DNA of 41,975 bases, taken from IMG/VR virus record IMGVR_UViG_3300042566_000909, positions 1 through 41,975 of that record. One strand, written 5' to 3'. The notes beneath the pieces are model-generated. The model worked only from the letters and a program-made list of their open reading frames with translations, was not told the origin of the DNA and did not search any database. Source of the stretch: a virus. Positions 6,992-38,357 of this stretch are shown piece after piece; position 1 is the stretch's first letter, and each line of letters begins with the position of its first letter. The position numbers and the translations under genes are program-made.

Positions 6992-7020
6992 AGTATAACA
7001 ACCCTCTGTGTATTTATCAA
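6992..7020 (-). promoter_or_regulatory. Promoter for the 6868-6085 gene run
   Basis: TTGATA-N17-TATACT on the minus strand. The spacer has ACAGAGGGTTGT rather than the usual ACACCCC word, so it may lack that operator. Confidence 0.6.
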
Positions 7021-7217
7021 CTCATCTCAAAACAAAGATGTTCGTTGTTTACATCACGAGCGATGCCAGTGACCCACGCAGGATTTTCTGTTGGGTTTAC
7101 GCCACCGTCACCTCTTGCAATGAGTTCAACAACTTTGTCAACTGCTTCGCCGAGCGCGCCGTTGAAATCGGTTGCATCAACATCGGTCGTGACCATCACT
7201 GTTACGCGATACTTCAT
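7017..7217 (-). CDS. Hypothetical protein (66 aa) containing a repeat copy
   Basis: ATG 7217 overlaps the upstream stop (ATGA); the longer upstream frame overlaps a real gene. MKYRVTVMVTTDVDA begins a beta strand pattern typical of small phage proteins. The segment ARGDGGVNPTENP is encoded by a copy of the GACGGTGGC repeat (7094-7118), here in frame in the middle of the gene. Confidence 0.55.
   Translation of the reverse strand: MKYRVTVMVTTDVDATDFNGALGEAVDKVVELIARGDGGVNPTENPAWVTGIARDVNNEHLCFEMS
7094..7118 (-). repeat. GACGGTGGC repeat, copy 6, inside a gene
   Basis: In frame inside the 66-residue gene, encoding RGDGGVNP. Confidence 0.7.
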
Positions 7218-7537
7218 ACCGCCACCTCCGCAAACTTGCTGTACTCGTTTACGAACTCTTGTGGAGTGTGAGCGAACCCTTTCTCCCATGCGGATTCGTA
7301 GCACGCTTGAAGGAGTGCGAGTCTTGCGATTGCGAGAGAAACTGTCGGATAGTGCTCCAACCACTCGTTGGCAACGAAGTCTGTCCACCACAGGTAACCG
7401 CTGTCATCTGCGCCTTGAGAGACAACTGCTTTCATATCGTCGTTGATGATGACGCATACTTCCTTTGATATTTCAAAGTCTGTCATGTTTGGTTGATAAT
7501 CGGTGTGTGCTGAGTCAATGATGTTTGTCATGTTCAT
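7214..7537 (-). CDS. Hypothetical protein (107 aa)
   Basis: Start overlaps the stop of the preceding gene (ATGA). Predicted mixed fold with a tryptophan-rich middle (SGYLWWTDFVANEWLEHY) and a long helix (AIARLALLQACYESAWEKG). It is the middle gene of a three-gene coupled run from 7770. No family recognised. Confidence 0.6.
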   Translation of the reverse strand: MNMTNIIDSAHTDYQPNMTDFEISKEVCVIINDDMKAVVSQGADDSGYLWWTDFVANEWLEHYPTVSLAIARLALLQACYESAWEKGFAHTPQEFVNEYSKFAEVAV

Positions 7538-7770
7538 CCCATTTCTTCTAGTAGTTCGTCTAATGCTTCGTAGTCAAGTGAGTCATCCAACCATGCAACG
7601 CCGTCAGGAGTTCCTGCCGATGTGTAGACAAGATAGTTGGTTGCGAAATCTCGGTAGTTCATTTCTTTGCCGTACGCCATAACCATTTGGTAGAGCCGTT
7701 CGTCATTGGCGAGCCACAGGTTTACATTCCATGTCTCTCGGTTTTTCCAACCGTTGTAAGTCGTTTCCAT
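7534..7770 (-). CDS. DUF7249-like protein (78 aa)
   Basis: ATG 7770 is chosen because CTACTAGAAAGG lies just upstream; the 11-codon upstream extension crosses that leader. The opening METTYNGWKNRETWNVNLWLANDE is split here as NGWKNRETWNV and NLWLANDE, the hallmark of a small phage/plasmid family (DUF7249). Function is unknown. Driven by the promoter at 7806-7834. Confidence 0.75.
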   Translation of the reverse strand: METTYNGWKNRETWNVNLWLANDERLYQMVMAYGKEMNYRDFATNYLVYTSAGTPDGVAWLDDSLDYEALDELLEEMG

Positions 7771-7805
7771 TTTTACCTTTCTAGTAGATTTATCTATCAG
7801 CACCC

Positions 7806-7834
7806 ACTTTACAGTGGGGGTGTAACACGGTTTA
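7806..7834 (-). promoter_or_regulatory. Operator-in-spacer promoter
   Basis: TAAACC-N17-TAAAGT on the minus strand with GTGTTACACCCCC in the spacer. The -35 is the end of repeat copy 7. Confidence 0.6.
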
Positions 7835-7853
7835 TGCCACCGTCAGATGTTGC
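7829..7853 (-). repeat. GACGGTGGC repeat, copy 7
   Basis: Contains the TGA stop of the gene at 7843-8286 and runs into the next promoter's -35. Confidence 0.7.
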
Positions 7854-8286
7854 GATTGTTGTAGAGGTGGAGGAGCCACTCCATCATGTTGGACTTGTAT
7901 CCCTCCCACACGCTGTCGCCACTCATAATCCAGTCCGACAAGTCTTCCAAGTCTTGCTGAGTTGCGTCGTTCTGAATCCATTGGAGTGCTTTCCACTCTC
8001 GGTCTTCTTCTGTGTAGATTCCGCCGTCAATGAGTGAGCCGACTTCATCTTTGATGGAGAGGGGGGAGTACGAGACTGCGTAGCGATACTTGTTGTCGCC
8101 CCACCCCGTGTCTTTGCCCATCTGCTCAATGGAGATTCCGTAACGCTTGCCGATGTCAGAGATTTCGCTGTCGCTGGCTTCGTCAAGGAGATGATTGTCG
8201 TGGTCATCTAGGTTGTCGGTTTCTACGATGACGCATCCCTCAAGGTTGAGTACTGTGCCAGTAGTTGTGTCAATGATGAGTTTCAT
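7843..8286 (-). CDS. Hypothetical acidic protein (147 aa)
   Basis: Preceded by TTACTAGAAAGG, the standard leader. N-terminal strands (LIIDTTTGTVLNLEG, VIVETDNLDD) resemble the start of several phage proteins of unknown function. The middle has DIGKRYGISIEQM, the end is helical and Trp-rich. Its stop codon lies within a GACGGTGGC repeat. Single-gene transcription unit from 8321-8349. Confidence 0.65.
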   Translation of the reverse strand: MKLIIDTTTGTVLNLEGCVIVETDNLDDHDNHLLDEASDSEISDIGKRYGISIEQMGKDTGWGDNKYRYAVSYSPLSIKDEVGSLIDGGIYTEEDREWKALQWIQNDATQQDLEDLSDWIMSGDSVWEGYKSNMMEWLLHLYNNRNI

Positions 8287-8320
8287 CTGTTTACCTTTCT
8301 AGTAAGTAGGTGTTATGTAG

Positions 8321-8349
8321 AGTGTAATACACTCACAGCGTCCTGTCAA
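8321..8349 (-). promoter_or_regulatory. Promoter for gene 8286-7843
   Basis: TTGACA-N17-TACACT on the minus strand; the TTGACA overlaps the TGA stop of the upstream gene. The spacer lacks the ACACCCC word. Confidence 0.75.
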
Positions 8350-8648
8350 CTCGCAACAGGATTTTTCGTATAAATAAACTCATACGGTTCGCAGAGGTCA
8401 ATCGCCCACTCCTCGTGAGCAATGCCCCACACATCTCGGGATTCACTGATTGCCTTCATGAGACTCTCAAGTTCCTCACGGTTCATGTGGTAGTAGTACT
8501 CCTCAAAGAACTCGTTCTGGTCATCGGGGTTCCAAGTGTCGCCGTCAAACACGAGGGTGACTTCCTGAAGGGAGTCGCGCCCATCGTCGTGGTAGTAGAT
8601 GGCGCACTCAAGTGTGAGTCCGTTTACTTCGGGGATTGTGATGGTCAT
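8346..8648 (-). CDS. Hypothetical protein (100 aa)
   Basis: ATG 8648 follows ACTACTAGAAAGGTAACCGAC; the 19-codon extension crosses the promoter and leader. Beta-rich first half (MTITIPEVNGLTLECAI, LQEVTLVFDGDTW), then an acidic helical end. No family recognised. Confidence 0.65.
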   Translation of the reverse strand: MTITIPEVNGLTLECAIYYHDDGRDSLQEVTLVFDGDTWNPDDQNEFFEEYYYHMNREELESLMKAISESRDVWGIAHEEWAIDLCEPYEFIYTKNPVAS

Positions 8649-8676
8649 GTCGGTTACCTTTCTAGTAGTTGATGGA

Positions 8677-8705
8677 AGTATAACAGGTGGGTGTAACACA
8701 CACAA
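8677..8705 (-). promoter_or_regulatory. Operator-in-spacer promoter
   Basis: TTGTGT-N17-TATACT on the minus strand with GTGTTACACCCAC in the spacer. Confidence 0.7.
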
Positions 8706-8709
8706 CTAT

Positions 8710-8865
8710 TTACTTCTCATTCTCTATAACGACGGGAGTCTCCTGAAGTGTGCGCATTTCTGCGAGCATTTCTAAAATCTCTGCGCTCTGTCGTTGTATG
8801 TCTGCGATGAGGGCGAGAGCCTTTGCTCTCTCCTCGGATGTCATGAGGTCGGGGTTGAAGGTCAT
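8710..8865 (-). CDS. Small coiled-coil protein (51 aa)
   Basis: ATG 8865 overlaps the preceding stop (ATGA). After MTFNPDLMTSEERAKA, heptad-like hydrophobics (LALIADIQRQSAEILEMLAE) predict a single amphipathic helix. Function unknown; co-transcribed with the gene upstream. Confidence 0.6.
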   Translation of the reverse strand: MTFNPDLMTSEERAKALALIADIQRQSAEILEMLAEMRTLQETPVVIENEK

Positions 8866-9134
8866 ACAGACTCCTTCTGTTCCACGACTGACCAACCGAT
8901 GGGTTCGCACCGCCATGTCACTCCATCTACTTCTACTTCGTCACGCACGGACAGTGCGGTATGTGTGCGGTTCTCGGGGAGGTGCGGTTCTAGCGCATCC
9001 CACAGTGACCCGTTATATAGGTTGGTGTCACGGAACGCACGCTCAACGATGTCGTGACCTTCAGTGTTCTCCCACTCAAAAGTGGCTGAAGTCGGGTCGC
9101 CGAACGCTTTCCATGTGATGGTGATTGTTGCCAT
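8862..9134 (-). CDS. Hypothetical protein (90 aa)
   Basis: Starts after AAACGAAAGGAAAAAAC. A strand-rich protein (ATITITWKAFGDPTSATFEWE, read as two strands) with EVEVDGVTWRCEPIGW near the end. Coupled to the downstream coiled-coil gene. No family recognised. Confidence 0.6.
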   Translation of the reverse strand: MATITITWKAFGDPTSATFEWENTEGHDIVERAFRDTNLYNGSLWDALEPHLPENRTHTALSVRDEVEVDGVTWRCEPIGWSVVEQKESV

Positions 9135-9167: not shown

Positions 9168-9196
9168 ACTATACACGAGGGGTGTAACATTGTCAA
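9168..9196 (-). promoter_or_regulatory. Operator-in-spacer promoter
   Basis: TTGACA-N17-TATAGT on the minus strand, ATGTTACACCCCT in the spacer: one of the best matches to the window consensus. Confidence 0.85.
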
Positions 9197-9410: not shown

Positions 9411-9422
9411 TGTGGCGAACTA

Positions 9423-9830
9423 ATGTTCGGTTTCATGAAACCCAATCGCATTGACAATGCCACTCGCTGGCAACTCCACCTAACAGCACTACAACAGTTC
9501 GTTACCCGAACTGGCTCTGCCCGTGTTCCGTCCACACACACTGAGGTCGTGGAAGGTCGCAATGTTGCCCTTGGCGCATGGGTCGGGTACATGAGACAGC
9601 GCAATCGTGCTGGGTTGTTGTCCTCGGAGCGTAAGCAAACCCTTGAGGCAATCTCGGGCTGGGCTTGGGGACCGCTTCGCCCTGGCCCTGCGACCAATAC
9701 GGAACGAGATGAAAACATTGTCGTCCTTCGCTCACAAGGTCTGAGCCTTGAGACAATCGCAAGCAAGTTCGGTATCTCTCGTCAGCGAGTTCATCAAATC
9801 GCTCGTTCACACACCAACGCCAATGCCTGA
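9423..9830 (+). CDS. Helicase-associated-domain and HTH protein
   Basis: About 135 residues. Residues ~15-80 match a single helicase-associated (HA) domain: RWQLHLTALQQFV, R(V)P, LGAWVGYMRQRNRAG, L..ER...LE.I.GWAW. The C terminus is a helix-turn-helix of sigma region 4/transposase type: IVVLRSQGLSLETIASKFG followed by SRQRVHQIARS. Together they suggest a sequence-specific DNA-binding regulator; it could be the factor acting on the repeated operators. ATG 9435 is a possible alternative start; no good Shine-Dalgarno is visible for either. Confidence 0.7.
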   Translation: MFGFMKPNRIDNATRWQLHLTALQQFVTRTGSARVPSTHTEVVEGRNVALGAWVGYMRQRNRAGLLSSERKQTLEAISGWAWGPLRPGPATNTERDENIVVLRSQGLSLETIASKFGISRQRVHQIARSHTNANA

Positions 9831-10238: not shown

Positions 10239-11726
10239 TCAGAGGTTGCCCCCCTGAACCCGTCGCCATGTTTGCTTCCAACAGTTTGGATACCACATGG
10301 CTGGTTTGATTCCTGACTTCAGTTGCTCAAGAGCCTTGATTCCTTCTTGTACATTCACACGAACGATTACCTTTTCTTTGCGAACCTGCTTGATACAGTC
10401 CATTGCGAGAAAGTCCTCGTAACCGTGGTTGATTCCATGAACAAGTCCGTCCGTGATGAACACGACTGGTGCGTTCTTGTGTTGCTTCTGCTTGATTGCC
10501 CAACGCAGAGCCTCACCGTCAACACCGTTGCCACCGCTACGCTCGGGAACTGCGTCAACCATACGACCCTTTTCCGCAAGAATGAACAAGTTGTCCTTCT
10601 TGTTTTGTGAGTCTGTGGAATAAACCGCAACCGTTGCGCCGGGAGCCTGCTCCATGATTTTCACAAGGTCTGCCGTGGAGAGTCGCATAGAGCCTGAACC
10701 GTCAATGATGACGACTCCACCGTTGCCCTTCTTGCTTGCGTCAAAGATACGACGCTCAGGGTCAATCAACATTCGCCCGATACGACGAGGGTTGCGTCCC
10801 ATGTCGGTTGCCCGACGCTTGCGACCCAATCCACCTTGTGCGTGACGAGTGAGTGGGAGTTTGCGAACCTTGAGTTCTGCCCAAGAGACCGCACGACCAC
10901 CTTCGCTCGCAGGATTGATTTCCTTGAGTTTGGTTTTGTCAACCTTTGGCTTCGCAGGTTGCTTGTCTGCTTTGCCAATCTTGTTTGGTTGAGTTTCGCC
11001 GTTTGCTTCTGGCTTTCCGCCACCGTCATCACTTGACTGACCTTCTTGACCTTCCTCACCTTCGTCGTTCTCGTCCTCGGGTGGGTTGGCGATTCGGTCA
11101 ATCATCTCTGCGATTACTTCGGTGTGGGTGAATCCCAACGGTGCGAGACCGCTTTTTGCGTCAACCGCCGTGCTTGCGAGAGTCCGACGCTTGTCTGCCT
11201 TCGCAATCAGTTTCTCAACCTTCTTGGCAATGTCTCGGAGTGCGTTCGCCCATTCGGGATTTTCCCTGCGGATTCCCGTGATGAATGGCTTGAGTCCTGC
11301 GGAGTTGGAGAATCCAACGACCGTGTAGACCGCACTTGTCCAATCGCCTTGCTTGGCGATTCGTACGCCTGCCTCAAGTTCAGACCCGTCGCTGAGGTGA
11401 GTGAGAACATCAAACCCTGCCTTCTGAGCAAGGAAGTTCACTCGGGATTCCTCAACTGCTCGCAGAGCGATTTCACTCGCAATGTTTCGCTGAATCCATG
11501 CTGAGAAGTCGTGCGCTGGTGAGACCTTTGCGTGAACCATCTCGTGAGCCCGAATACAACGCTCAGTCTCTCCGTCATTTACGGGGACGACCATCACCTT
11601 GTCAACAATGTTGGTGTGAGGGAGTCCTCGGACTGGAGCACATGGGTCAACGACCCACGCCCCAATCTCTGTGTCCCTGCGCCCCAACATCTCGGGCATG
11701 GGTTGGTTGTTCATTGTCGCAGTCAT
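10239..11726 (-). CDS. VWA-domain protein with HExxH metallopeptidase motif
   Basis: About 495 residues; ATG 11726 forms a TGATG junction with the ATPase gene (GTG 11729 is an alternative). Near residue 62 is AHEMVHAKVSP, an HExxH zinc-peptidase motif, followed about 25 residues later by VEESRVN, a plausible third ligand region. A low-complexity acidic linker (EDENDEGEEGQEG) contains the dispersed repeat as SSDDGGGKP. A Lys-rich segment follows, then a C-terminal VWA domain with the MIDAS motif DGSGSM and a later FITDG. This N-peptidase/C-VWA architecture resembles DUF2201/CobT-type partners of MoxR ATPases, which remodel or activate other complexes. Function in the phage is inferred only. 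Confidence 0.8.
   Translation of the reverse strand: MTATMNNQPMPEMLGRRDTEIGAWVVDPCAPVRGLPHTNIVDKVMVVPVNDGETERCIRAHEMVHAKVSPAHDFSAWIQRNIASEIALRAVEESRVNFLAQKAGFDVLTHLSDGSELEAGVRIAKQGDWTSAVYTVVGFSNSAGLKPFITGIRRENPEWANALRDIAKKVEKLIAKADKRRTLASTAVDAKSGLAPLGFTHTEVIAEMIDRIANPPEDENDEGEEGQEGQSSDDGGGKPEANGETQPNKIGKADKQPAKPKVDKTKLKEINPASEGGRAVSWAELKVRKLPLTRHAQGGLGRKRRATDMGRNPRRIGRMLIDPERRIFDASKKGNGGVVIIDGSGSMRLSTADLVKIMEQAPGATVAVYSTDSQNKKDNLFILAEKGRMVDAVPERSGGNGVDGEALRWAIKQKQHKNAPVVFITDGLVHGINHGYEDFLAMDCIKQVRKEKVIVRVNVQEGIKALEQLKSGIKPAMWYPNCWKQTWRRVQGGNL
11011..11035 (-). repeat. GACGGTGGC repeat, copy 8, inside a gene
   Basis: In frame in the acidic linker of the VWA protein, encoding SSDDGGGKP as in copy 2. 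Confidence 0.8.
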
Positions 11727-12445
11727 CACGCACCAACCTTGTCAAGTGCGATTGCGTCCATGAACGATTGTGCTCGGTCTCGGAACACCATCTTGCTTGC
11801 CTTCTCGTCGCCCAACTGCTTGCGGAGCGAGTCAAATGCGTAGAAGGTGCGGAGACTGATACGACGCTCGCCTGCGTCTGCCATACGGACTGCGTATCCA
11901 CGCAAATCCTCTGACAGTTTGAGTAGAGCGTTCGGGTGAGGTTGGTTGATTCGGATTGCCACGGGGAATCTGTCTTTCAGAGCCTCGGGGAGTTCCCTCA
12001 TGTCCTCAATGTTGGTGGTCATGACGACGCTGAATCCGTCAAGGGGACGAACCTTGCGACCGTTGTCGGGGTTTTCCCATGACGCTGATTCGGGAGAGTC
12101 GGTCATTGCGAGGAGAGTTGCGAACACATCTCCCCCTGCCTTGTCAATCTCGTCAATCACGAGACGACCGCCACGGAGACCGTCGCCCTGCCATGCCTTG
12201 ATTGCCTGACCGTCATTCCAACGCCACTCGCCATTGGCAGAGGGCTTGTAGTGACCCTCAACTTGAGCGTTAGTCATGTCGTCGGTACAGATGAGTCGCC
12301 ACGCACCGCCTGCCACATCACCCATGTTCATGCCTGCGTAGGTCTTGCCAGTTCCTGGGGGACCGAACAGAATCACACGGTCAATGCCTGCGATAAGTGC
12401 GTCGTTGACTTCCTGCCAACAACTCGGGAGTTCTACTTGATTCAT
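11726..12445 (-). CDS. MoxR-like AAA+ ATPase
   Basis: 239 residues. Walker A GPPGTGKT at 28-35, Walker B LVIDEID at 95-101, sensor TTN at 143-145 and an arginine finger in LKDRF (159). The MoxR-type insert NAQVEGHYKPSANGEWRW and the helical lid at the C terminus are present. MoxR ATPases work with VWA-domain partners as chaperone-like machines, and the partner is the next gene, overlapping by one to four bases. Start ATG follows AGAAAGAAGGAAC. Transcribed from 12489-12517. Confidence 0.9.
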   Translation of the reverse strand: MNQVELPSCWQEVNDALIAGIDRVILFGPPGTGKTYAGMNMGDVAGGAWRLICTDDMTNAQVEGHYKPSANGEWRWNDGQAIKAWQGDGLRGGRLVIDEIDKAGGDVFATLLAMTDSPESASWENPDNGRKVRPLDGFSVVMTTNIEDMRELPEALKDRFPVAIRINQPHPNALLKLSEDLRGYAVRMADAGERRISLRTFYAFDSLRKQLGDEKASKMVFRDRAQSFMDAIALDKVGA

Positions 12446-12488: not shown

Positions 12489-12517
12489 AGTGTATCTACT
12501 TATTAGTGATTTGTCAA
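12489..12517 (-). promoter_or_regulatory. Promoter of the MoxR-VWA operon
   Basis: TTGACA-N17-TACACT on the minus strand; the spacer lacks the ACACCCC operator. Same -10 and missing operator as the promoters at 8321 and 13444. Confidence 0.8.
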
Positions 12518-12569: not shown

Positions 12570-12597
12570 ATCTTACAGAGGGGGTGTAACACAGTAA
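12570..12597 (-). promoter_or_regulatory. Second, operator-containing promoter
   Basis: TTACTG-N16-TAAGAT with TGTTACACCCCC in the spacer. Bipartite motif a lies directly upstream, sharing the TTCGTTA/-35 bases. Confidence 0.55.
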
Positions 12598-12623
12598 CGA
12601 ACAGAGTGACCGAAAGTGTGCGC
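12596..12623 (-). promoter_or_regulatory. Bipartite motif a (GCGCACACTTT-N11-TTCGTT)
   Basis: Perfect copy on the minus strand upstream of the 12570 promoter. Confidence 0.7.
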
Positions 12624-12639: not shown

Positions 12640-13410
12640 TTAGTTGCTCACGGTTGTTCGCACTCCCTGACGGATTGCCTCAAACATGGCAAGAATGTTC
12701 TTGTCGGGGTGAGCCAACGGTTCACCAACCTCACCCATGACTTCGGATTCACACTTGGACTTCAGGTCGTCAATCTTGTCTTGGTATGCCTGCCAGTCAA
12801 AGTCCTCGTCGTTCCAATCCAAGTCTGCGTATCCCTCAATGTCCTCAACATTCCCATCACAGGTTGCGACGAGACCGTTCTGAATACGCCCTGCCCCAAC
12901 GAGACCGTTTCCAAGTTCCTCGTACTGAATGTGGAACTCCAATGTTGGGAACATTGTGGAAATGTGGTTGAGTGCGTCAATCGGGGGTGACCACGCCGTA
13001 TCAAAGGAGAAGTCAAGGTGAGTGTCTGAGTGACCGTTGAGACGAGTCTCGCAGTCGCCCCACTTTGTTCCCCAATGCGAGCAACACCAGTCGTACCAGT
13101 CTTTCGCACCATACTTGGCGAGATTTGCCTGATTTCGTGCGTAGCCTTCCGCATTGCGAGTGACCAGTTCGTTGTACCATTCCTCGGTGATTTCGCCCTT
13201 CTCCATTGACACCTTCCAGTTGGGGTGTTCCTCGGGAGTGAAGAATCCTGCGGTGGATTCCTTGAGTTCGGTCGGAATCGGATAGAGACGACTAATAATG
13301 TCGTATGTGTCGTGTCCTTCGTCGTTCACGGTGTGGACTCGCTGAAGGAAGTCCGTGATGGACTCAGGGTCTCCCTGAATCGTCATAGTGTTGTTACACC
13401 AGTTGGGCAT
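12640..13410 (-). CDS. DUF1281/YubB ferredoxin-like-domain protein
   Basis: 256 residues. ATG 13410 follows CTAGAAATAAGGAGTAAGCAA; the longer frame crosses the promoter. MPNWCNNTMTIQG and the later HWGTKWGDCETR are hallmarks of the plasmid/phage DUF1281 (YubB) family, which has a ferredoxin-like fold and no established function. The middle has LYPIPTELKES and the acidic end DWNDEDFDWQAYQDK. Single-gene unit. Confidence 0.75.
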   Translation of the reverse strand: MPNWCNNTMTIQGDPESITDFLQRVHTVNDEGHDTYDIISRLYPIPTELKESTAGFFTPEEHPNWKVSMEKGEITEEWYNELVTRNAEGYARNQANLAKYGAKDWYDWCCSHWGTKWGDCETRLNGHSDTHLDFSFDTAWSPPIDALNHISTMFPTLEFHIQYEELGNGLVGAGRIQNGLVATCDGNVEDIEGYADLDWNDEDFDWQAYQDKIDDLKSKCESEVMGEVGEPLAHPDKNILAMFEAIRQGVRTTVSN

Positions 13411-13443: not shown

Positions 13444-13472
13444 AGTGTATCTCCTTTTTATTTCGCTGTCAA
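13444..13472 (-). promoter_or_regulatory. Promoter for the DUF1281-like gene
   Basis: TTGACA-N17-TACACT on the minus strand, without operator word, nearest to the gene start. Confidence 0.75.
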
Positions 13473-13507: not shown

Positions 13508-13535
13508 ACCTTACAGAAGGGGTGTGACACAGATA
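13508..13535 (-). promoter_or_regulatory. Operator-containing promoter
   Basis: TATCTG-N16-TAAGGT with TGTCACACCCC in the spacer; bipartite motif b abuts it. Confidence 0.5.
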
Positions 13536-13536
13536 G

Positions 13537-13577: not shown

Positions 13578-13605
13578 ACTTTACCAAAGGGGTGTAACAC
13601 AGTTC
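13578..13605 (-). promoter_or_regulatory. Operator-containing promoter-like site
   Basis: GAACTG-N16-TAAAGT with TGTTACACCCC in the spacer; weak -35. Confidence 0.4.
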
Positions 13606-13608
13606 CCC

Positions 13609-14252: not shown

Positions 14253-14377
14253 GCCACTTCCTCGTCGTCGGGGGGCGCACAGTCGTAACAGACTCGCCCG
14301 AATGATGACCACACTTCTGAAGTGTCGTCGTGTGTGTTTTGACCGCATTGGTTACAGGTGAGAGTCTCAGTAGTCAT
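14249..14377 (-). CDS. Zinc-ribbon microprotein (42 aa)
   Basis: ATG 14377 lies inside the end of the upstream gene and the stop overlaps the next ATG. Two CxxC pairs (CNQC near the start, CYDC 18 residues later) form a minimal zinc ribbon; the tail is acidic (PPDDEEVA). Short but well framed by overlapping neighbours. Confidence 0.6.
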   Translation of the reverse strand: MTTETLTCNQCGQNTHDDTSEVWSSFGRVCYDCAPPDDEEVA

Positions 14378-14606
14378 CTAGGGTGTCTCCGTTTTGGTCT
14401 TGGAAGATGAGGTCTCTTGCTCGTGCGTTACGCATCATGTCAAGTGTTTCGTTCTCTATGTAGAGAATGACATCATCAAGTGTGAAGTTCATTTCTTCGC
14501 CGTTGAGAATACGGTTATCTTCTTTGAGTGTTTGGATAACTTCATCAACGCCGTATGTGGAAACCCACATCACATTTATGCGTTCGGGCATTACTTCTAG
14601 TTCCAT
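14367..14606 (-). CDS. Hypothetical protein (79 aa)
   Basis: Starts after CTACTAGAAAGGAACACATAG. Contains PERINVMWVSTYGVDEVIQTL, read in two parts, and a helical acidic end. It is the first gene of the run ending with the DUF4314 gene. No family recognised. Confidence 0.6.
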   Translation of the reverse strand: MELEVMPERINVMWVSTYGVDEVIQTLKEDNRILNGEEMNFTLDDVILYIENETLDMMRNARARDLIFQDQNGDTLDDY

Positions 14607-14644: not shown

Positions 14645-14673
14645 AGTATAAGTGAGGGGTGTTATAGGGATTA
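14645..14673 (-). promoter_or_regulatory. Promoter with flanking inverted repeat
   Basis: TATACT -10 with TAATCC 17 bases up (poor -35). CACCCCTCA and TGAGGGGTG flank the -10 as a perfect inverted repeat, so the operator may be doubled here. Confidence 0.5.
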
Positions 14674-15043: not shown

Positions 15044-15559
15044 TCAGTACCAACAAATGAGCCCGTCTGCGTGTTCCGCCGCCCACTTGAGATACCACGA
15101 CGCATACTTGAGGTCTGCCGTGATGTCCTCTCCGCCCATGCGGTAAACACCATCTTCCTCGTCGCACTCGTCAAACGCCTCGTCAATGACTTGGGCAAGA
15201 GTGAGACAAGAGCCCTTTGACTTCTCTGTCCCATCTTCGCTATCGCCATAGAACGAGAAGTCATCACTATCGCCGTATCCGATTGCTTCCAAGAGGTAGT
15301 TGCCGTACTTGCCTCTGTACCAACAGTCAGTACCGAACATTCCATAGACAGGACTGCCGAGTGCTTCCTTGTCTTGCTTATTCAGTTCATTGACATACGG
15401 GCAACCGCCACACGCTTGCGTAGCCTGACAGTCAATGACCATCATGGTTGAGCCGTCATCTTCCGTGAGTGCCACGCCGTCTTTGTTGAGTCGTGGAGTC
15501 ATCACTACAGTTCCCTGAGCCTTACAGGGGTACTGCTTCGGAATGTTGTCTAGTCCCAT
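15044..15559 (-). CDS. Conserved phage protein, Cys-rich (171 aa)
   Basis: AAAGGAAAGTG precedes ATG 15559; GTG 15562 is also possible. The opening MGLDNIPKQYPCKAQGT recurs in actinophage proteins. Cysteines cluster at DCQATQACGGCP and later in CWYRG, SCLT, ECDEE and LICWY, suggesting a metal site or disulfides. Function is unknown. Confidence 0.7.
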   Translation of the reverse strand: MGLDNIPKQYPCKAQGTVVMTPRLNKDGVALTEDDGSTMMVIDCQATQACGGCPYVNELNKQDKEALGSPVYGMFGTDCWYRGKYGNYLLEAIGYGDSDDFSFYGDSEDGTEKSKGSCLTLAQVIDEAFDECDEEDGVYRMGGEDITADLKYASWYLKWAAEHADGLICWY

Positions 15560-15590: not shown

Positions 15591-15619
15591 AGTATAACAA
15601 GGGGGTGTCATACTGTCAA
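15591..15619 (-). promoter_or_regulatory. Operator-in-spacer promoter
   Basis: TTGACA-N17-TATACT with GTATGACACCCCC in the spacer: a near-consensus promoter. Confidence 0.85.
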
Positions 15620-15973: not shown

Positions 15974-16372
15974 TCACGCCACCTTTGCGGTAGCGTCACC
16001 TTCCTCAACATTGTCATTCAGGTCATACACACGGAACTGCGTGTATGGGGTGGACTTGGTGACCGCTTCTGCGACATCTGCCTTGATGAGTCCAAGTTCT
16101 ACTGCCGACTGAAACTTCTTACCGTCAATCTCGGTCTTAGTGACCTTCTTGAGCGTCGCACCGTTCACCAACTCGGTGAGGGTCTTGAGGTTGTATGAGC
16201 GACGGTTAGCCGTGATGAGCATGACCTTTTCGTTGCCCACAATGACGGACTCCGTGCCGTTCTTGGCAAGGGCTTCCTTCAGGATTTCCTCTGCCTGCGC
16301 CTTTGCCTGCTTTGCGACTTCCAATGCTCGCTCTGCCTCAAGGAACATCTGACCTGCTTGTAATGTATTCAT
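15974..16372 (-). CDS. Coiled-coil protein of unknown function (132 aa)
   Basis: Starts after TACTAAAAGGAGTAGCGAA with AAGGAG. The N-terminal ~40 residues are an uninterrupted Ala/Lys/Glu helix (EAERALEVAKQAKAQAEEIL). A strand (ESVIVGNEKVMLI), then NRRSYNLKTL and a C-terminal domain follow. The layout resembles small phage recombination or ssDNA accessory proteins, but nothing specific identifies one. Confidence 0.6.
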   Translation of the reverse strand: MNTLQAGQMFLEAERALEVAKQAKAQAEEILKEALAKNGTESVIVGNEKVMLITANRRSYNLKTLTELVNGATLKKVTKTEIDGKKFQSAVELGLIKADVAEAVTKSTPYTQFRVYDLNDNVEEGDATAKVA

Positions 16373-16409: not shown

Positions 16410-16438
16410 AGTTTATCAGAGGGGTGTTACTTTCGCAA
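16410..16438 (-). promoter_or_regulatory. Operator-in-spacer promoter
   Basis: TTGCGA-N17-TAAACT with AAGTAACACCCCT in the spacer; nearest to gene 16372. Confidence 0.7.
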
Positions 16439-16475: not shown

Positions 16476-16503
16476 ACTTTATCAGAGGGGTGTAACACAG
16501 TTC
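16476..16503 (-). promoter_or_regulatory. Operator-containing promoter-like site
   Basis: GAACTG-N16-TAAAGT with TGTTACACCCCT in the spacer. Confidence 0.45.
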
Positions 16504-16524
16504 CCTGTAGCCCTCACCATCTAT

Positions 16525-16554: not shown

Positions 16555-16582
16555 ATCTTATCTAGGGGGTGTGACACGGTTA
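16555..16582 (-). promoter_or_regulatory. Operator-containing promoter-like site
   Basis: TAACCG-N16-TAAGAT with TGTCACACCCCC; its -10 abuts motif c. Confidence 0.4.
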
Positions 16583-16597
16583 TCCGTACACACATAG

Positions 16598-17286: not shown

Positions 17287-17739
17287 TCAGACTCCGATAC
17301 CCGCATGACGCTTCGCTTCTTCCCATGTGTGACACGCAAGGTGCTTCAGGGTCTCTGTGTTGTTCTCGCCACTCTCAACCGTGTACACGCTCACGCCGTT
17401 CCTGCGCATGACATAGACGAACTGCGCCCATGAGTATGCGCCAGTTTCTTCCGTGTACCACGCTTCGTCGGAGTCCTTGTCAATGTCGTCGTGAACAATG
17501 CCGTAGCCGACACGAATGTTCTTCTCATCTCTGAACTCGTCGGTGTCGCCTTGCTCGTGGTCAATAACTGACCATGACGCATTGTCGTTGATGAGTGTCG
17601 TGACTACTTGTGTAATCCCGTCACGCTCTACAAGTGCGCCGAGTACGCCAACCATTCGTTCAGGGTAGTTATCCCAATGAGCGTAACGCCCACGCCAACC
17701 CTGCGCCCGTTCTACTGCGATGATTGCTCTAGTTGCCAT
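17287..17739 (-). CDS. Conserved phage protein (150 aa)
   Basis: MATRAIIAVERAQGWRGRYAHWD, read as MATRAIIAVE and GWRGRYAHWDNYPE, matches a recurrent actinophage family in which a GxRGRYxHWDGYP motif follows a short strand. Middle: SVIDHEQGD, GYGIVHDD; end: helical HLACHTWEEAKRHAG. The function of the family is unknown. Start follows AGAGAAAAGGAATAAACAC. Confidence 0.7.
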   Translation of the reverse strand: MATRAIIAVERAQGWRGRYAHWDNYPERMVGVLGALVERDGITQVVTTLINDNASWSVIDHEQGDTDEFRDEKNIRVGYGIVHDDIDKDSDEAWYTEETGAYSWAQFVYVMRRNGVSVYTVESGENNTETLKHLACHTWEEAKRHAGIGV

Positions 17740-17773: not shown

Positions 17774-17802
17774 ATGATACACACGGGGTGTGACACGGTA
17801 CA
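17774..17802 (-). promoter_or_regulatory. Operator-in-spacer promoter
   Basis: TGTACC-N17-TATCAT with GTGTCACACCCCG in the spacer. Confidence 0.6.
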
Positions 17803-17968: not shown

Positions 17969-18415
17969 TCAGTTTCCTTCCGTATCCATGATGTGGCGAG
18001 TCTCGCCGTGACATTTGTGGGTTGTCTTGCGAACACACTCCGCCATGCTCTGCGAGTCAATGACGAACTTCTTGTTACACTCGTGGCACTTCGCCGTGTA
18101 TGAACGCTGACCCTTTGCCCATTGGTATGGGTGGATTGGCGTGTAGCCCTTGAGTCGCTCGTCAGGGAAACAAGTGATTGCTTCGTCACACTTCACACAC
18201 ACGACAACCTTGACCATGTAGGTGACTCCGCCGAACACGATGGGCTCAATGTTGGAGTAACCCTTTTTGTTGTATCCGCACTTGGTACAGATACGGTCAT
18301 GGTTGGTCATGTCTGCCGAAAGTGTGGACACTTCCTTGTTGGCGATTTTCTGAACTACAGCAACTGGAATGTTTTTGTTGTTCGCTTGCTTTACGATGTG
18401 GGCGGTGAGTTTCAT
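17969..18415 (-). CDS. Zinc-cluster protein, paralogue A (148 aa)
   Basis: Same length as and clearly homologous to 20377-20823: both share VKVVVCVKCDEAIT, the following PI...QW.KG.RSY(T/S)AKCH.C, and a terminal (G/K)(E/K)TRHIM. Four cysteine groups (CTKC, CVKC, CHEC and a late C...C) suggest two zinc sites. Role unknown. Upstream are two LexA-like boxes (18581-18606), bipartite motif e and an operator promoter, the same order as at the paralogue. Confidence 0.75.
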   Translation of the reverse strand: MKLTAHIVKQANNKNIPVAVVQKIANKEVSTLSADMTNHDRICTKCGYNKKGYSNIEPIVFGGVTYMVKVVVCVKCDEAITCFPDERLKGYTPIHPYQWAKGQRSYTAKCHECNKKFVIDSQSMAECVRKTTHKCHGETRHIMDTEGN

Positions 18416-18445: not shown

Positions 18446-18474
18446 ACTCTATCACTACGGTGTAACACTAGCAA
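18446..18474 (-). promoter_or_regulatory. Operator-in-spacer promoter
   Basis: TTGCTA-N17-TAGAGT with GTGTTACACCGT in the spacer; drives paralogue A. Confidence 0.7.
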
Positions 18475-18548: not shown

Positions 18549-18580
18549 CACTACTGAAAGTTTTTCAGAAAGATTTTTCC

Positions 18581-18606
18581 GAACAAATGTTCCCGAACAA
18601 GTGTTC
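18581..18606. promoter_or_regulatory. Two LexA-like (GAAC-N4-GTTC) boxes
   Basis: CGAACAAATGTTCC and CGAACAAGTGTTCG match the Gram-positive/actinobacterial SOS box CGAAC-N4-GTTCG; 14 bases start to start. Confidence 0.6.
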
Positions 18607-18611
18607 GCACG

Positions 18612-18661: not shown

Positions 18662-18868
18662 ATGATTGTTACTTGTGAGTTCTGCGGATTTCAGATTGAC
18701 ACGGGCAGACACGCCCACTCGGTGAAAGTAACGGGCTGGGTAAAGACGAAACAAGGCAAACCTGGCACCACCATTACACGGGCATCAGCCCCGATGGGTT
18801 ATGCGTGCCAGACCTGTCTGGAGTCCCGCGACGGGCGCGGCGATGCGGGGCTCGCGACGCTCTTCTGA
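18662..18868 (+). CDS. Small zinc-ribbon protein (68 aa)
   Basis: A -10 TAAACT ends six bases before the ATG, so the mRNA may be leaderless. CEFCG and ACQTC are 43 residues apart with GWVKTKQGKPGTT between, a pattern seen in small actinophage Cys proteins. The last 20 codons run through an AGYCCCG hairpin cluster, so the repeat is part of the coding end. It points opposite to its neighbours; moderately supported. Confidence 0.5.
   Translation: MIVTCEFCGFQIDTGRHAHSVKVTGWVKTKQGKPGTTITRASAPMGYACQTCLESRDGRGDAGLATLF
18787..18856. repeat. AGYCCCG hairpin cluster
   Basis: AGCCCCGATGGG, then AGTCCCGCGAC and GCGGGGCTCGCGAC, overlapping the 3' end of the zinc-ribbon gene. Confidence 0.5.
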
Positions 18869-19231: not shown

Positions 19232-19259
19232 GCGCACACTTTTGACCACTCTTATCGTT
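19232..19259 (+). promoter_or_regulatory. Bipartite motif h
   Basis: GCGCACACTTT-N11-ATCGTT, the only plus-strand copy, upstream of the only plus-strand operator promoter in this region. Confidence 0.65.
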
Positions 19260-26246: not shown

Positions 26247-26271
26247 CTCTGTCACACCCCCGCTGTATAGT
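26243..26271 (+). promoter_or_regulatory. Operator-in-spacer promoter
   Basis: GTAACT-N17-TATAGT with CTGTCACACCCCC in the spacer; overlaps the upstream stop. Confidence 0.65.
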
Positions 26272-28740: not shown

Positions 28741-28947
28741 TTACCAATGTCGCCAAGTGCGACCCCATCTCGGGGAAGTTGTTCTGAGGTATGTTGCCAA
28801 GATTGGCATACGGTTCTCAATAAGTTTCGGGAACAGAACATGGACTGCGAGGTCTATGGTGCGAACATACTTACAGGGGCTTCCAAAGAAGTATCTGCTT
28901 CGTGGTTCTGACTCATGGAGTCTTGCTAGTTCTAGTACTTGATTCAT
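28741..28947 (-). CDS. Hypothetical protein (68 aa), leaderless
   Basis: Supported mainly by a near-perfect promoter ending six bases before ATG 28947. The product is basic (PKLIENRMPILATYLRTTSPRW read in part) with no recognised domain. It converges on the lytic gene, ending three bases from its stop. Confidence 0.5.
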   Translation of the reverse strand: MNQVLELARLHESEPRSRYFFGSPCKYVRTIDLAVHVLFPKLIENRMPILATYLRTTSPRWGRTWRHW

Positions 28948-28953: not shown

Positions 28954-28982
28954 AGTATAACAGCGGGGTGTCGTATTGTCAA
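28954..28982 (-). promoter_or_regulatory. Leaderless operator-in-spacer promoter
   Basis: TTGACA-N17-TATACT with ATACGACACCCCG in the spacer; ATG 28947 follows after six bases. Confidence 0.85.
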
Positions 28983-29440: not shown

Positions 29441-29469
29441 TTGACAAACCAATACGGTTCCACTAAACT
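29441..29469 (+). promoter_or_regulatory. Promoter of the DUF932 gene
   Basis: TTGACA-N17-TAAACT without the ACACCCC operator, then CTACTAGAAGAAAGAAAGG. Confidence 0.75.
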
Positions 29470-29503: not shown

Positions 29504-30529
29504 ATGTCTCACGACTTAGAAATCAAAGCAAATGGGGAGGCGAAGTTTGCGTACGCAGACCGAGAAGCCCCTTGGCACAGACTCGGCAAGCCCATGAAGG
29601 GTCTCCAAACAATGGATGCCATGTTGGAGGCAGCGGAAGCGGACTACCAAGTGATTCTCACAAAGGTCGCAGCGGTAAACGAAGATGGCGAGTTCATCTT
29701 GGATGTGAACGGTAAGCCCGTCATCATTGACGACAGTCGGGCAACAGTCCGTGCGAATACCGATGGCACCTACGATTCGTTGGCAACCGTAGGCAACCGT
29801 TACGAAGTGCGTCAGAACCGTGAGGTTCTAGAGCGTGCGTTGGCAGTTGTCGGAGCGAGCAAGGGCGACGCAGTGATTGACACTTGCGGAGTTCTCCGTG
29901 GCGGTGCGAGATTCTTCTCCACTATTGACCTCGGCTCTCTCGTCATTGACCCAATGGGCGTGAATGACCGTATCGCACGGTTCCTTGTCGTATCCACGGG
30001 TCACGACGGCGTGTGGCCAATCCGTTATGCGAATACCGACATTCGTGCGGTGTGTCAGAACACTGTGATTATGGGTCTCCGTTCAGCGGAGCGCACATTC
30101 ACGGCACGACACACTCGTAATGTGGATACCGCACTTGACGACGCTCAGACCGTTCTCCGAATGAACACCGAATGGGCGAGAGAGTTCAAGGCAACCGCAG
30201 AGCGAATGCTCACAATCCCAGTCCCCCAAGCATCATTTGCGATTGACAAGGTTCTCAATACCGTATTCCCTAAGAAGTCGGATGAGACAGACCGTCAGCG
30301 CAAGAACCGTGACGAGAATCTTTCACTCGTGCGTTCGCTCTATGCGAATGAGCGCAATGCGGGAGGATTCGGTTACAACGGTTGGTCTATCTACAACACT
30401 GTTGTGGAATACCTTGACCACTGGCGTGACGACGACAAGATTGCGATGGCAACAGCATCCATGGATGACAACTCGTGGGTCACACGCAAGAAGTTGGAAA
30501 CACAGAACGCAGTGCTCGCACTCGTCTAA
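29504..30529 (+). CDS. DUF932 phage/plasmid-like protein
   Basis: 341 residues. PWHRLGKPM near the N terminus, later RYEVRQNREVLE, GGARFFSTIDLG and DTALDDAQTVLR, then YNGWSIYNTVVEYLDH at the end. These are the landmarks of DUF932 (TIGR03299 type). The family is widespread in phages and plasmids and its function is unknown; proximity to recombination or replication genes is common. Strong leader and terminator suggest high expression. Confidence 0.9.
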   Translation: MSHDLEIKANGEAKFAYADREAPWHRLGKPMKGLQTMDAMLEAAEADYQVILTKVAAVNEDGEFILDVNGKPVIIDDSRATVRANTDGTYDSLATVGNRYEVRQNREVLERALAVVGASKGDAVIDTCGVLRGGARFFSTIDLGSLVIDPMGVNDRIARFLVVSTGHDGVWPIRYANTDIRAVCQNTVIMGLRSAERTFTARHTRNVDTALDDAQTVLRMNTEWAREFKATAERMLTIPVPQASFAIDKVLNTVFPKKSDETDRQRKNRDENLSLVRSLYANERNAGGFGYNGWSIYNTVVEYLDHWRDDDKIAMATASMDDNSWVTRKKLETQNAVLALV

Positions 30530-32047: not shown

Positions 32048-32749
32048 TTAGCGTGCTGGGAAGTCTCGGATTAGTACCGACTCCTTGTCCATCGTGTCCC
32101 TGCCAAGAACATGGATTTCTGTGTTGTTGTAGTTCCAAGTCTCACGAACATGATGGTGACCGCAGACATGAAGGTCAGGGTTGACCTTTTGCTGTAGTTC
32201 CAACACGAGTTCACGCTGAGCAACCGATACGGGAATGTCATCTTTGTATGTGAGTTGCTTTCCGTATGGTGCTTCGTGGGTGATGAGGACATCTACTTTG
32301 TCGTTGCTCACTTCGTCTAAGTGATACGGGTTGATGAGTTCTTGCTTCCAGAATGAATGACCCAACTCTCGCTGTTTCCAGTCCACGCTGTACGCACCGC
32401 CGTAGCCCATGAATGTGTACCCGTTGATGTCAAAACGACACCCTCGTGGTATCCACTTGACCCACTTGTCAGGGGTAGGGATAGGGGTATGGTCGCCGTG
32501 TTCCTCTCGGAGTTTGTCCAAAAGGTCGTGGTTCTCATGGTTGCCGTCTATCCACAAGATAGGAATGTTGTTGTGTTCTGCGAGCAGACTCGCCCGTGCG
32601 ATGAACTTACGCCCAAACGCTAGGTGAACCCAGTAGCCGAAGTCGCCACACGCAATGATGGTGTCAACATCGTTCTTCTTTGCATGGCGGAATAGCCAGT
32701 TCAGATGGCTCATGTTTCCATGAATGTCACCTGCGAACATGATTCTCAT
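32048..32749 (-). CDS. Calcineurin-like metallophosphoesterase
   Basis: 233 residues with all canonical blocks: MFAGDIHGN, ACGDFGYW, WIDGNHEN, GYGGAYSVDW, VLITHEAPYG and HVCGHHHVR. A dimetal site is therefore intact. Length and motif spacing are those of stand-alone phosphodiesterase/phosphatase members; the substrate is unknown. AGGAGGTGACAATAA precedes the start, an unusually strong Shine-Dalgarno. Driven by the promoter at 32792. It is distinct from the one at the left edge. Confidence 0.9.
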   Translation of the reverse strand: MRIMFAGDIHGNMSHLNWLFRHAKKNDVDTIIACGDFGYWVHLAFGRKFIARASLLAEHNNIPILWIDGNHENHDLLDKLREEHGDHTPIPTPDKWVKWIPRGCRFDINGYTFMGYGGAYSVDWKQRELGHSFWKQELINPYHLDEVSNDKVDVLITHEAPYGKQLTYKDDIPVSVAQRELVLELQQKVNPDLHVCGHHHVRETWNYNNTEIHVLGRDTMDKESVLIRDFPAR

Positions 32750-32791: not shown

Positions 32792-32820
32792 AGTATAGCA
32801 AGGGGGTGTAACATTTGCAA
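32792..32820 (-). promoter_or_regulatory. Operator-in-spacer promoter
   Basis: TTGCAA-N17-TATACT with ATGTTACACCCCC in the spacer. Confidence 0.8.
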
Positions 32821-37555: not shown

Positions 37556-37708
37556 TTCACAGTATTCATGGGGGTCGTGGTCGCATACTTCGTACCACAC
37601 TTCCCATTCGTAATAGTCGTGGCTGTCAAGGTACTCTCGTACTTCCCTCTTAGCCTGTCGCCTGTGTTGCTTGACCTTGTGACGGTAATACAACAGTCCT
37701 AGTATCAC
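37544..37708 (-). CDS. Small Tyr/Trp/Cys-rich protein (54 aa), GTG start
   Basis: GTG start lies within a GTATCA/TGATAC palindrome (37703-37717). Short hydrophobic N terminus (VILGLLYY), basic helix (KVKQHRRQAKREVREYL), acidic-aromatic end with CDHDPHEYCELC. Tail-to-tail overlap of 12 bases with the membrane-protein gene. Protein-like composition and the upstream iterons support it. Confidence 0.5.
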   Translation of the reverse strand: MILGLLYYRHKVKQHRRQAKREVREYLDSHDYYEWEVWYEVCDHDPHEYCELCT

Positions 37709-37717
37709 TTTGATACC
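37703..37717. promoter_or_regulatory. Operator-like palindrome at gene start
   Basis: GTATCA-CTT-TGATAC, perfect six-base arms, over the GTG start of gene 37708-37544; the half-site recurs in the tandem array at 37788. Confidence 0.55.
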
Positions 37718-37787
37718 CGTGAACTACCCGTGAGCATCTTGACGATGCGCCTGAGCGTCACTCTCCTTATCCAAGTCAAGTAGAGAT

Positions 37788-37837
37788 GTATCACTTCGTA
37801 TCTCTTTGTATCACTTTGTATCCCTTTGTATTGCTGA
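37788..37837 (-). repeat. 10-bp tandem repeats (iteron-like)
   Basis: Four full units and one partial of AAAGNGATAC (minus strand), in exact 10-base phase. With the palindrome at 37703 they could be a repressor-binding array or origin iterons. Confidence 0.65.
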
Positions 37838-37893
37838 TTCCATTTATACAAACTCTTTCCTGTATTAGCAGAGGGGTCTCCTCCACTATAGAC

Positions 37894-37922
37894 AACATAA
37901 CAGATGTGTTAGATGTTGTCAA
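37894..37922 (-). promoter_or_regulatory. Promoter sharing the small-RNA operator
   Basis: TTGACA-N17-TATGTT on the minus strand, spacer with TAACACATCTGT; the 16-mer is identical to that at 35473-35488. Upstream of the iterons and gene 37708. Confidence 0.7.
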
Positions 37923-37970
37923 GTGTTACGAATAAATATTTACCCGTGAGCACCCGTAAGCACTAAAGCA

Positions 37971-38002
37971 AAAAGAGGGGAGAGGTGTTACCTCCTCCCC
38001 TT
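37971..38002 (-). terminator. Intrinsic terminator
   Basis: GGGGAGGAGGT/ACCTCTCCCC stem followed by CTTTTTGC on the minus strand, after gene 38007-38285. Confidence 0.8.
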
Positions 38003-38006
38003 GCTT

Positions 38007-38285
38007 TCAGAACTTGTAGTCGGTGTAGAAGATTGGGGTCTCTGTCTCCCTCAAGGGGCGCATACCTTGACCTGTGCGGTATGTGCCGTCTTTGCGGAGT
38101 CGCACTGTCATTGTGTATCCCTCAGGGCAAGTGATTGCGATGTGTCCAACTACTGGCAACTCTGCGCCATCGTTGTAAACCTGCTCGCCTTGACTCATCT
38201 GACGAATCGTAATCGTCTTAGCCGTCTGACGAATCACTTCCCAACATCTTGTGTCTGTCACAAGCGTTTCTGTCATGAACTTCAT
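38007..38285 (-). CDS. Hypothetical protein (92 aa)
   Basis: Leader CTACTAGAAAGGTAGAGCA precedes the ATG. DTRCWEVIRQTAKTITIRQM resembles the YEVV.RTAKTVT(L/V)R motif of a common small actinobacterial mobile-element family. C terminus TVRLRKDGTYRTGQGMRPLR. Function unknown. Promoter at 38329 and terminator at the end make a single-gene unit. Confidence 0.7.
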   Translation of the reverse strand: MKFMTETLVTDTRCWEVIRQTAKTITIRQMSQGEQVYNDGAELPVVGHIAITCPEGYTMTVRLRKDGTYRTGQGMRPLRETETPIFYTDYKF

Positions 38286-38328
38286 TGCTCTACCTTTCTA
38301 GTAGTTCAGGTACTTCCTGATAAATCTA

Positions 38329-38357
38329 ACTATAACAGGGGGGTGTAACATTGTCAA
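38329..38357 (-). promoter_or_regulatory. Operator-in-spacer promoter
   Basis: TTGACA-N17-TATAGT with ATGTTACACCCCC in the spacer: consensus match. Confidence 0.9.

Follow-up and report, generated by a model that had tools for sequence, protein, structure and literature searches.

Twenty-five promoters of an uncultured virus carry a spacer element laid out like actinobacterial DNA-damage promoters

Why should a virus place the same short word in the spacer of some two dozen promoters? The question is raised by IMG/VR record IMGVR_UViG_3300042566_000909, a virus record of 41,975 bp that we analyzed over its full length (hereafter, the window), and in which a first-pass annotation had proposed promoters sharing a spacer word and a leader. 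Our favored interpretation, held with moderate confidence, is that the window contains 25 activator-type promoters of the class used for LexA-independent DNA-damage induction in actinobacteria (PafBC / recA-P1). The virus probably borrows this switch of its host and places dozens of viral genes under it.

The window appears to be contained, at offset 80,624, in a 128,618-bp IMG/VR contig (G001; IMGVR_UViG_3300042389_001027), because the DUF932 protein and a helix-turn-helix protein (HA-HTH) are 100% identical in the two and the promoter sites agree (the comparison covered these features). All gene calls are our own. A scan with the DUF932 protein led to 58 loci, and a scan of IMG/VR with the HA-HTH family led to 345 loci, 80 of which were fetched. 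The 14 records used below for site counts are not independent, as there are stretches common to G002 and G003. Among 50,697 records of named phages there was no nucleotide match and no match to HA-HTH, and for the helicase these phages hold distant relatives alone (<60%). Taking WhiB as an actinophage marker, following PMC6802176, the window would derive from a virus of uncultured actinobacteria.

Promoter sites in the window

A 36-bp model built from the promoters quoted in the first-pass annotation matched the window 28 times above 9 bits, compared with a mean of 0.48 in 50 dinucleotide shuffles. An 11-bp model of the word itself (TGTNACACCCC), which holds no -35 or -10 information, matched 32 times, and in 25 of these cases a TANNNT hexamer lies at one exact distance (5 bp after TGTNACACCCC); the other offsets from -4 to +4 around that position hold 1 match in total. 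The word model was trained on these same sites, and the -10 spacing is independent of it. All 25 accepted sites are intergenic, and 24 have a same-strand start codon no more than 200 nt downstream; the exception, 16574, stands uppermost in a tandem stack, with the start 202 nt away. Overall, the distance from word to start codon is 26-202 nt, mostly 45-63 nt. The remaining seven word matches score 9.8 to 13.0 bits and are near the chance number (mean 6.4 and maximum 17 in 100 dinucleotide shuffles). Sites 18465 (12.0) and 28973 (12.9) score no higher than those seven and rest on their -10 and position.

The earlier estimate of about 25 promoters thus stands, and all nine coordinates quoted for it fall on sites recovered here. 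Four promoters without the word were likewise confirmed, each with a perfect TTGACA, a 17-bp spacer, and TACACT or TAAACT. All are listed here with coordinates, strand, word position (site), content, and gene; a weak -35 is one matching TTGACA at 3/6 or less.

7806-7834, minus, site 7825: element with TAAAGT, weak -35; gene 7534-7770
8677-8705, minus, site 8696: element with TATACT, weak -35; gene 8346-8648
9168-9196, minus, site 9187: TTGACA and element; gene 8862-9134
12570-12598, minus, site 12589: element, weak -35, upstream promoter in tandem with word-less 12489-12517; AAA ATPase gene 11726-12445
13508-13536, minus, site 13527: element, weak -35, tandem; gene 12640-13410
13578-13606, minus, site 13597: element, weak -35, tandem; gene 12640-13410
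14645-14673, minus, site 14664: element, weak -35; gene 14367-14606
15591-15619, minus, site 15610: TTGACA and element; gene 15044-15559
16410-16438, minus, site 16429: element, -35 4/6, tandem; gene 15974-16372
16476-16504, minus, site 16495: element, weak -35, tandem; gene 15974-16372
16555-16583, minus, site 16574: element, weak -35, top of triple stack; gene 15974-16372
17774-17802, minus, site 17793: element, weak -35; gene 17287-17739
18446-18474, minus, site 18465: element, -35 4/6; zinc-ribbon-like paralog 17969-18415
19170-19198, minus, site 19189: element, weak -35; gene 18942-19142
19257-19285, plus, site 19266: element, weak -35; gene 19328-19498
20203-20231, minus, site 20222: element, weak -35; gene 19888-20166
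20854-20882, minus, site 20873: element, weak -35; zinc-ribbon-like gene 20377-20823
22300-22328, minus, site 22319: TTGACT and element; gene 21745-22260
22849-22877, minus, site 22868: element, weak -35; gene 22656-22823
22939-22967, plus, site 22948: element, weak -35; gene 23008-23334
25539-25567, plus, site 25548: TTGACA and element; gene 25599-25826
26243-26271, plus, site 26252: element, weak -35; gene 26301-26558
28954-28982, minus, site 28973: TTGACA and element; gene 28741-28947
32792-32820, minus, site 32811: TTGCAA and element; gene 32048-32749 (metallophosphoesterase-like by reading)
38329-38357, minus, site 38348: TTGACA and element; gene 38007-38285
8321-8349, minus: word-less, TTGACA-17-TACACT; gene 7843-8286
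12489-12517, minus: word-less, TTGACA-17-TACACT, downstream of element promoter 12589; gene 11726-12445
13444-13472, minus: word-less, TTGACA-17-TACACT, downstream of element promoters 13597 and 13527; gene 12640-13410
29441-29469, plus: word-less, TTGACA-17-TAAACT; DUF932 gene 29504-30529

Element layout and the -35 box

The annotation had described TTGACA-like -35 boxes in most units, with the word as an operator lying over standard promoters. Scored against TTGACA in the best of three registers, 4/6 or more is reached at just nine of the 25 sites (6/6 at 9187, 15610, 25548, 28973, and 38348; 5/6 at 22319; 4/6 at 16429, 18465, and 32811), and the other 16 have 3/6 or less. Most window sites carry AAC(C/T)NTGTNACACCC at about -33 to -19, counting the -10 hexamer as -12 to -7. 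The element can be written AAC(C/T)NTG(T/A)NACACCC, and the layout TGTNACAC-8 nt-TANNNT is found at all 25 sites.

Among 325 sites in 14 records, picked by word core and -10 only, 250 have a -35 below 4/6; pooled, the -35-less sites read A A C (C/T) at -33 to -30, TG at -28/-27, and ACACCC at -24 to -19. In the cleanest records, -35 boxes of 4/6 or more occur at 27% of sites in G002 (41 sites, control 0) and 6% in G017 (16 sites, control 0), compared with 13% and 10% of random positions, respectively. The distance to the -10 is nearly invariant: 194 of 280 element matches in the 14 records have offset 0, and offsets -1 and +1 have 0 and 2. There are minor peaks at +2 (24) and -5 (18), for which overlap among TATA-like letters can account.

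A missing -35 together with a rigid element-to--10 distance suggests an activator that replaces the -35. The word therefore behaves as an activator element and not as an operator. The wider proposal, that one protein bound in the spacer controls dozens of genes, is well supported, apart from its operator mode and the binders named for it.

Likeness to DNA-damage promoters

Mycobacterium tuberculosis genes induced by damage independently of RecA have the consensus tTGTCRgtg-8 nt-TannnT (quoted in PMC5656591), which resembles recA P1; the motif, for which orientation is important, is also written TGTCGG-10N (PMC8151990). Such promoters become usable for sigma-A RNA polymerase through sigma adaptation by the WYL heterodimer PafBC, in which PafB binds the -26 motif while PafC contacts sigma-A domain 4; the activating signal is single-stranded DNA (ssDNA) bound to the WYL domains (PMC11804915).

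The phage promoters have in common with these the TGT core, the 8 nt, and the TANNNT; an oriented spacer element near -26; a -35 that is missing or poor at most sites; and an element found upstream of chromosomal recA and repair genes (described below). They differ in an ACAC(CC) second half instead of RGTG, in the extra AAC(C/T) upstream, in numbering 25 copies in one phage region, and in having a presumed binder. Because the second half is ACACCC, we claim that the element works like the mycobacterial motif, not that it is a member of it. The same geometry as the published consensus and the position before recA in genomes are the reasons for reading the element as PafBC-type, with PafBC or a close WYL relative as its likely reader.

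The chromosomal evidence comes from one pattern, ACYNTGWNACACCCNNNNNNTANNNT, searched in one sample of 396 genomes from the phylum of G062 (an Actinomycetota bacterium, which holds locus L246). The pattern occurs at 20 places in five of the 396 genomes, and the control gave 0 throughout; G154 has eight copies, G176 six, G094 four, and G357 and G095 one each. In the phage records, it matches 4 to 14 times in 13 of 20 (control 0), and finds no match in G017, G007, and five other-word records (i.e., those whose promoters carry a different word, see below). The pattern leaves the base before AC free; 16 of the 20 chromosomal places have A there, as in phages, and one has a -35 of 4/6 or more. On their letters, these promoter-like sites (L346-L365), AC(C/T)NTGTNACACCC-N6-TANNNT, are a diverged version of the actinobacterial recA-P1 element.

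Open reading frames behind all 20 places were read, and 10 were put to Pfam (two of those without a family). At two places, in different genomes, the downstream gene is recA (Pfam RecA, E 7e-142 and 4e-144). A RadA-like gene, by reading, follows at one place (Pfam: KaiC-type ATPase, rubredoxin-type zinc ribbon, and Lon_C), an SSB-like protein at another (E 3e-4, under the curated cut-off), and PD-(D/E)XK nucleases at two. Eight places precede proteins linked by similarity around HNH/DUF222 members (L356 weakly), with one more cut by a contig end but starting alike, and five have a downstream gene without assignment. An element standing before chromosomal recA and repair genes points to a host factor as its reader.

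Promoter words across phage lineages

De novo motif discovery on the upstream regions of 27 records recovered the ACACCC class in window relatives (G002, TaACccTGAtACACCC; G038, ttaACCtTGAcACACCC; G017, CTGTCACACCC). Other lineages have other words before their genes (G024, TTGTAAATCTGATATC; G028, TATCTGTCCTG; G026, TTGTCGGTTAGGGGTGGG; G048, TTGTAAGTCGTCCGTAGG; G013, TAAGTCTGAACC; G042, TTATAACC; G043, CTTACTACCC; G044, ATTATTGCC); the words can also be given as TTAGGGGTGGG for G026 and TCTGATATC for G024. In most records, a TA..-type -10 lies inside the 30-bp motif; that of G026 runs into the leader, so that its -10 is uncertain. The de novo run gave no ACACCC consensus for G015 and G016 and a weak one for G018; seeded scans do find word sites in G015 and G016.

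In a tree of five proteins from 24 records (G003, G004, and G042 were dropped for missing genes), the ACACCC records form one clade (support 1.000), except for G017, which groups with G007 and G008 (TACAC in the word), G015 (a few TGTCACACC sites), and G046 (another word). Such lineage-specific words would be unexpected if they reflected a fixed sigma preference.

Some loci of the other-word lineages also hold a lone copy of a related element. One near-perfect AAAC(C/T)NTGTNACACCCC-type element occurs in 27 of 66 fetched loci (reversed control 2), including L171, L173, L182, L188, L190, L194, L199, L206, L231, and L240, mostly without a proper -10 by our reading; several of the loci are near-duplicates. 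Six whole other-word records carry two. A repeated ACGGTGGCGG(A) element is present in L171, L173, L179, L185, L197, L216, L219, and L226 (as GGTGGTGG in L226), and in L171, L173, L216, L219, and L226 it lies directly upstream of the single AACC..ACACCCC element. Some words are very numerous: TTATCTAC occurs 42 times in 21 kb of L051 (G013) and TTATCTAT 33 times in 15 kb of L050 (G022). The L051 word has at least one copy directly before a start codon (GGTAGATAAGTC) and forms part of the G013 promoter motif.

Candidate readers encoded by the phages

The annotation had named a ribbon-helix-helix (RHH) protein, WhiB, and an HTH protein as possible binders. These occur in 13, 15, and 13 of the 15 ACACCC-word records, respectively, and each in nine of nine other-word records; because they are present in all word groups, none is singled out. 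The RHH protein (3370-3537) has nearly constant strand residues (T-T-K/R), leaving aside G011, where the aligned piece is a spurious fragment. HA-HTH (9438-9830) also has a recognition helix that is nearly constant across word groups. Its identity to the window protein is partly discordant with the word, being 40 to 84% in same-word records except G001 (40-48% in G017, G005, G009-G012, and G021) and reaching 58% among other-word loci (e.g., L189). A single-sequence model of HA-HTH (mean pLDDT 80.5) had no PDB match at E 0.001 or better, and its confident short matches are HTH proteins. A phage sigma factor was also considered, and Sigma70_r2 was found in none of 10 records.

Three protein families do follow the word, being present in 12 of 15 ACACCC-word records and none of the nine others (E 0.001): a zinc-ribbon-like family (17969-18415 and 20377-20823 in the window), a 65-68-aa zinc-finger-like family, and a protein beside HA-HTH in G009. 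The small zinc-finger-like protein is, by reading, 18662-18868 in the window, and has weak matches (E up to 0.01) in three of nine other-word records. The zinc-ribbon-like family is absent from three ACACCC-word records, two of them contigs that apparently end near window 17 kb and one a 20-kb fragment, and the word is present at every fetched locus that holds the family. As a word-specific regulator it was rejected, both because G007, G008, and G015 use ACAC words without it and because the fold predicted for its N-terminal part is most like those of colicin E5/CdiA/MqsR-type proteins, not what one would expect of a transcription factor. This structural match is modest (best Z 6.7, 2.6 A over 75 residues) and may be a mere common arrangement. 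Searched with Foldseek, the model matched no PDB entry at E <= 0.001 and one phage protein in BFVD at 1.5e-7. Scans of IMG/VR with zinc-ribbon queries returned 10, 1, and 3 loci, adding to the known records a few extra contigs of the same group. The two paralogs, both on the minus strand, belong to an undescribed family confined to the ACACCC clade among the compared records.

Alternative explanations

Several observations weigh against a PafBC-type reading. The half-site letters are TGTNACAC and the mycobacterial ones TGTCRGTG, i.e., the element does not match tTGTCRgtg. Six window promoters retain TTGACA or TTGACT and might work unaided, and the 17-bp spacing also fits ordinary sigma-A promoters. 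Reversed-sequence controls for the 325 sites gave 59 matches, 29 of them within G009 to G012, where the sets total just 71 sites; the fractions of sites there with neither a -35 nor TGn (0.93 to 1.00 in G009, G011, and G012) are thus diluted by noise. Among the chromosomes, several copies are present in just three of 396 genomes, and the scarcity of -35 boxes is partly built in because the pattern requires C/T at the last A of TTGACA. Finally, the genomes bearing the element may not be those of phage hosts.

The absent -35 and the fixed spacing would also be expected if a phage protein read the element. In this explanation, which we think unlikely, a phage DNA-binding protein (perhaps aided by WhiB, whose partner is sigma-A region 4) would appropriate sigma in the style of T4 middle promoters and replace the -35, and the chromosomal copies would belong to an unrelated or ancestral host regulator. 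The presence of WhiB in every record of both word groups fits this, as do the turnover of words between lineages and the three families that follow the ACACCC word. However, the same element stands before recA in chromosomes; G007, G008 (a partial record), and G015 use ACAC-type words yet yielded no member of the zinc-ribbon family, whose N-terminal model has a modest match to colicin E5/CdiA/MqsR-type folds; the small zinc protein is weakly matched in other-word records; and the DNA-contacting parts of HA-HTH and RHH hardly vary between word groups. T4 middle promoters also keep the sigma -10, replace the -35 (as at 16 of 25 window sites), and serve dozens of genes, but the phage-read MotA box, centered at -30, lies 12 +/- 1 bp upstream of the -10 (PMC2988021), whereas the present element ends 5-8 bp from it and a host factor is the likelier reader.

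Repression by a phage protein that blocks polymerase at the element, for immunity or early shut-off, seems to us less probable still. It would account for an element inside the promoter, for the five window sites with a perfect TTGACA, and for words that differ by lineage, much as stoperators do among cluster A phages (PMC6550527); those too number 20-30 asymmetric sites per genome. An HTH_3 protein is over the cut-off in five of 10 records, three of which share one word (G009, G010, and G011), but G001 has none, its best match (17.6 bits) lying inside HA-HTH. Most sites also have no -35 to repress, the distance to the -10 is rigid, and tyrosine integrase (PF00589) was found in none of 15 records (serine integrases were not searched). 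Stoperators are repressor-read and lie mostly outside promoters, whereas here 25 of 25 sites hold one fixed promoter position. A different host activator of the same geometry with no DNA-damage link, such as another WYL protein or WhiA, is the least probable of the three, and in our view very unlikely. WhiA recognizes GACAC (PMC3781837), which is contained in the TGACACACCC read by some lineages, and promoters under joint WhiA/WhiB control likewise involve actinobacterial regulators, of which the phage encodes a WhiB. GACAC is absent from the window word TGTTACACC, however, and WhiA motifs have no consistent orientation according to the same source, whereas the phage element has a fixed position and one constant orientation relative to the -10. 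An activator unconnected with damage would also fit poorly with the presence of recA and further repair genes downstream of the chromosomal copies.

Proposed mechanism

In the PafBC-type interpretation, the host supplies the activator, because WYL is absent from the Pfam families listed for the scanned G001 proteins, these being the best 25 of 33 for the 74 window proteins and the best 25 of 43 for 53 other G001 proteins of at least 150 aa (the scan left out five proteins, four at fetch boundaries and one of 1157 aa). We infer a host with this same version of the element, and also the timing of the switch. The word-less TTGACA promoters would fire at once with host polymerase, free of any activator. 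Entry or replication of the phage genome may then supply ssDNA and switch on a PafBC-like WYL activator of the host, one HTH of which would bind the -26 element and the other engage sigma-A domain 4, as is known for mycobacterial PafBC. Housekeeping polymerase with PafBC would fire the 25 element promoters, although those bearing TTGACA may also work unaided. With the phage itself supplying ssDNA, dozens of single-gene units would come on together. In other phage lineages, the promoter words may correspond to PafBC elements that different hosts use.

Leader sequences and other repeats

The annotation had also described a common leader after most promoters. Within the window, CTACTAGAAAGG is found exactly nine times and TACTAGAAAGG 12 times, and by reading TACTA(G/A) follows 19 of the 25 sites (at 28973, behind the start codon); it is lacking at 15610 and at the five upstream promoters in tandem stacks. 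In the form TACTA(G/A)...AAGG, the AAGG ends 4 to 13 nt before the ATG, and the word-less promoters have the leader too. The leader is thus common, as described, but its distance from the ATG ties it to the start codon and not to the word. TACTAGA is enriched in several other-word relatives (15 vs. 0 in reversed sequence for G024, 11 vs. 0 for G048) and is not over-represented in G010, G012, and G042. The analogy drawn with the start-associated sequences of cluster K mycobacteriophages, which are 13 bp long and typically 3-7 bp from the start codon (PMC3203893), fits the leader CTACTAGAAAGG in placement, a few nucleotides before start codons. It does not extend to the promoter word, which is not start-associated, and the sequences are unrelated.

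LexA-type palindromes (CGAACNNNNGTTCG, CGAACN4GTTCG) occur five times in G001, where the reversed pattern is absent, and in 18 of 22 records (reversed control, one place each in G008 and G013). They lie at the HA-HTH start (9416-9429), upstream of the zinc-finger-like gene 18662-18868 (18580-18607, with the box counted in G001 at 18594-18607), and in a cluster beside 20377-20823 (20937-21014). The box is exact in nine of 55 distinct HA-HTH upstream regions, compared with 0.2% of random windows; the Streptomyces LexA box is tCGAAC-N4-GNNCGa (PMC9380542). These boxes would join a second arm of the damage response.

Other repeats include TTATCCACA-type clusters at 19756-19869 and 21060-21180, the second adjoining the LexA-type cluster, and TTATCCAC, of which the relatives L018 and L021 have 19 and 23 copies, respectively. 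We take the TTATCCACA-type repeats to be DnaA-box-like, and their clusters are a possible replication origin. Also strongly over-represented is GCGGGGCT, with 24 copies across the window, common to many relatives; its copies often form hairpins together with AGTCCCG or AGCCCCG.

Implications

Phages are known to monitor the LexA/RecA system in prophage induction; to our knowledge, none has a lytic early regulon built on the PafBC pathway. Among the titles listed by a literature search on PafBC and phages, none concerned phage promoters, and WYL regulators in phage defense were one of the subjects. A wider picture, which we put forward tentatively and would not yet count as likely, is that a large and diverse group of uncultured actinophages (HA-HTH at 345 places in IMG/VR) wires its early region to the LexA-independent damage activator of the host, the switch being ssDNA that phage replication itself generates. 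Each lineage's word would then be the version of the PafBC element in the recA promoter of its host, both timing the infection and naming the host, and the LexA-type box at HA-HTH would tie these phages to the LexA arm as well. If true, this would be a new timing mechanism for actinophages, and infection would require a host activator whose genes can be deleted in model actinobacteria. Comparison of promoter words with recA promoters could serve to assign hosts to uncultured phages, and the phages would constitute a natural collection of diverged PafBC-type elements.

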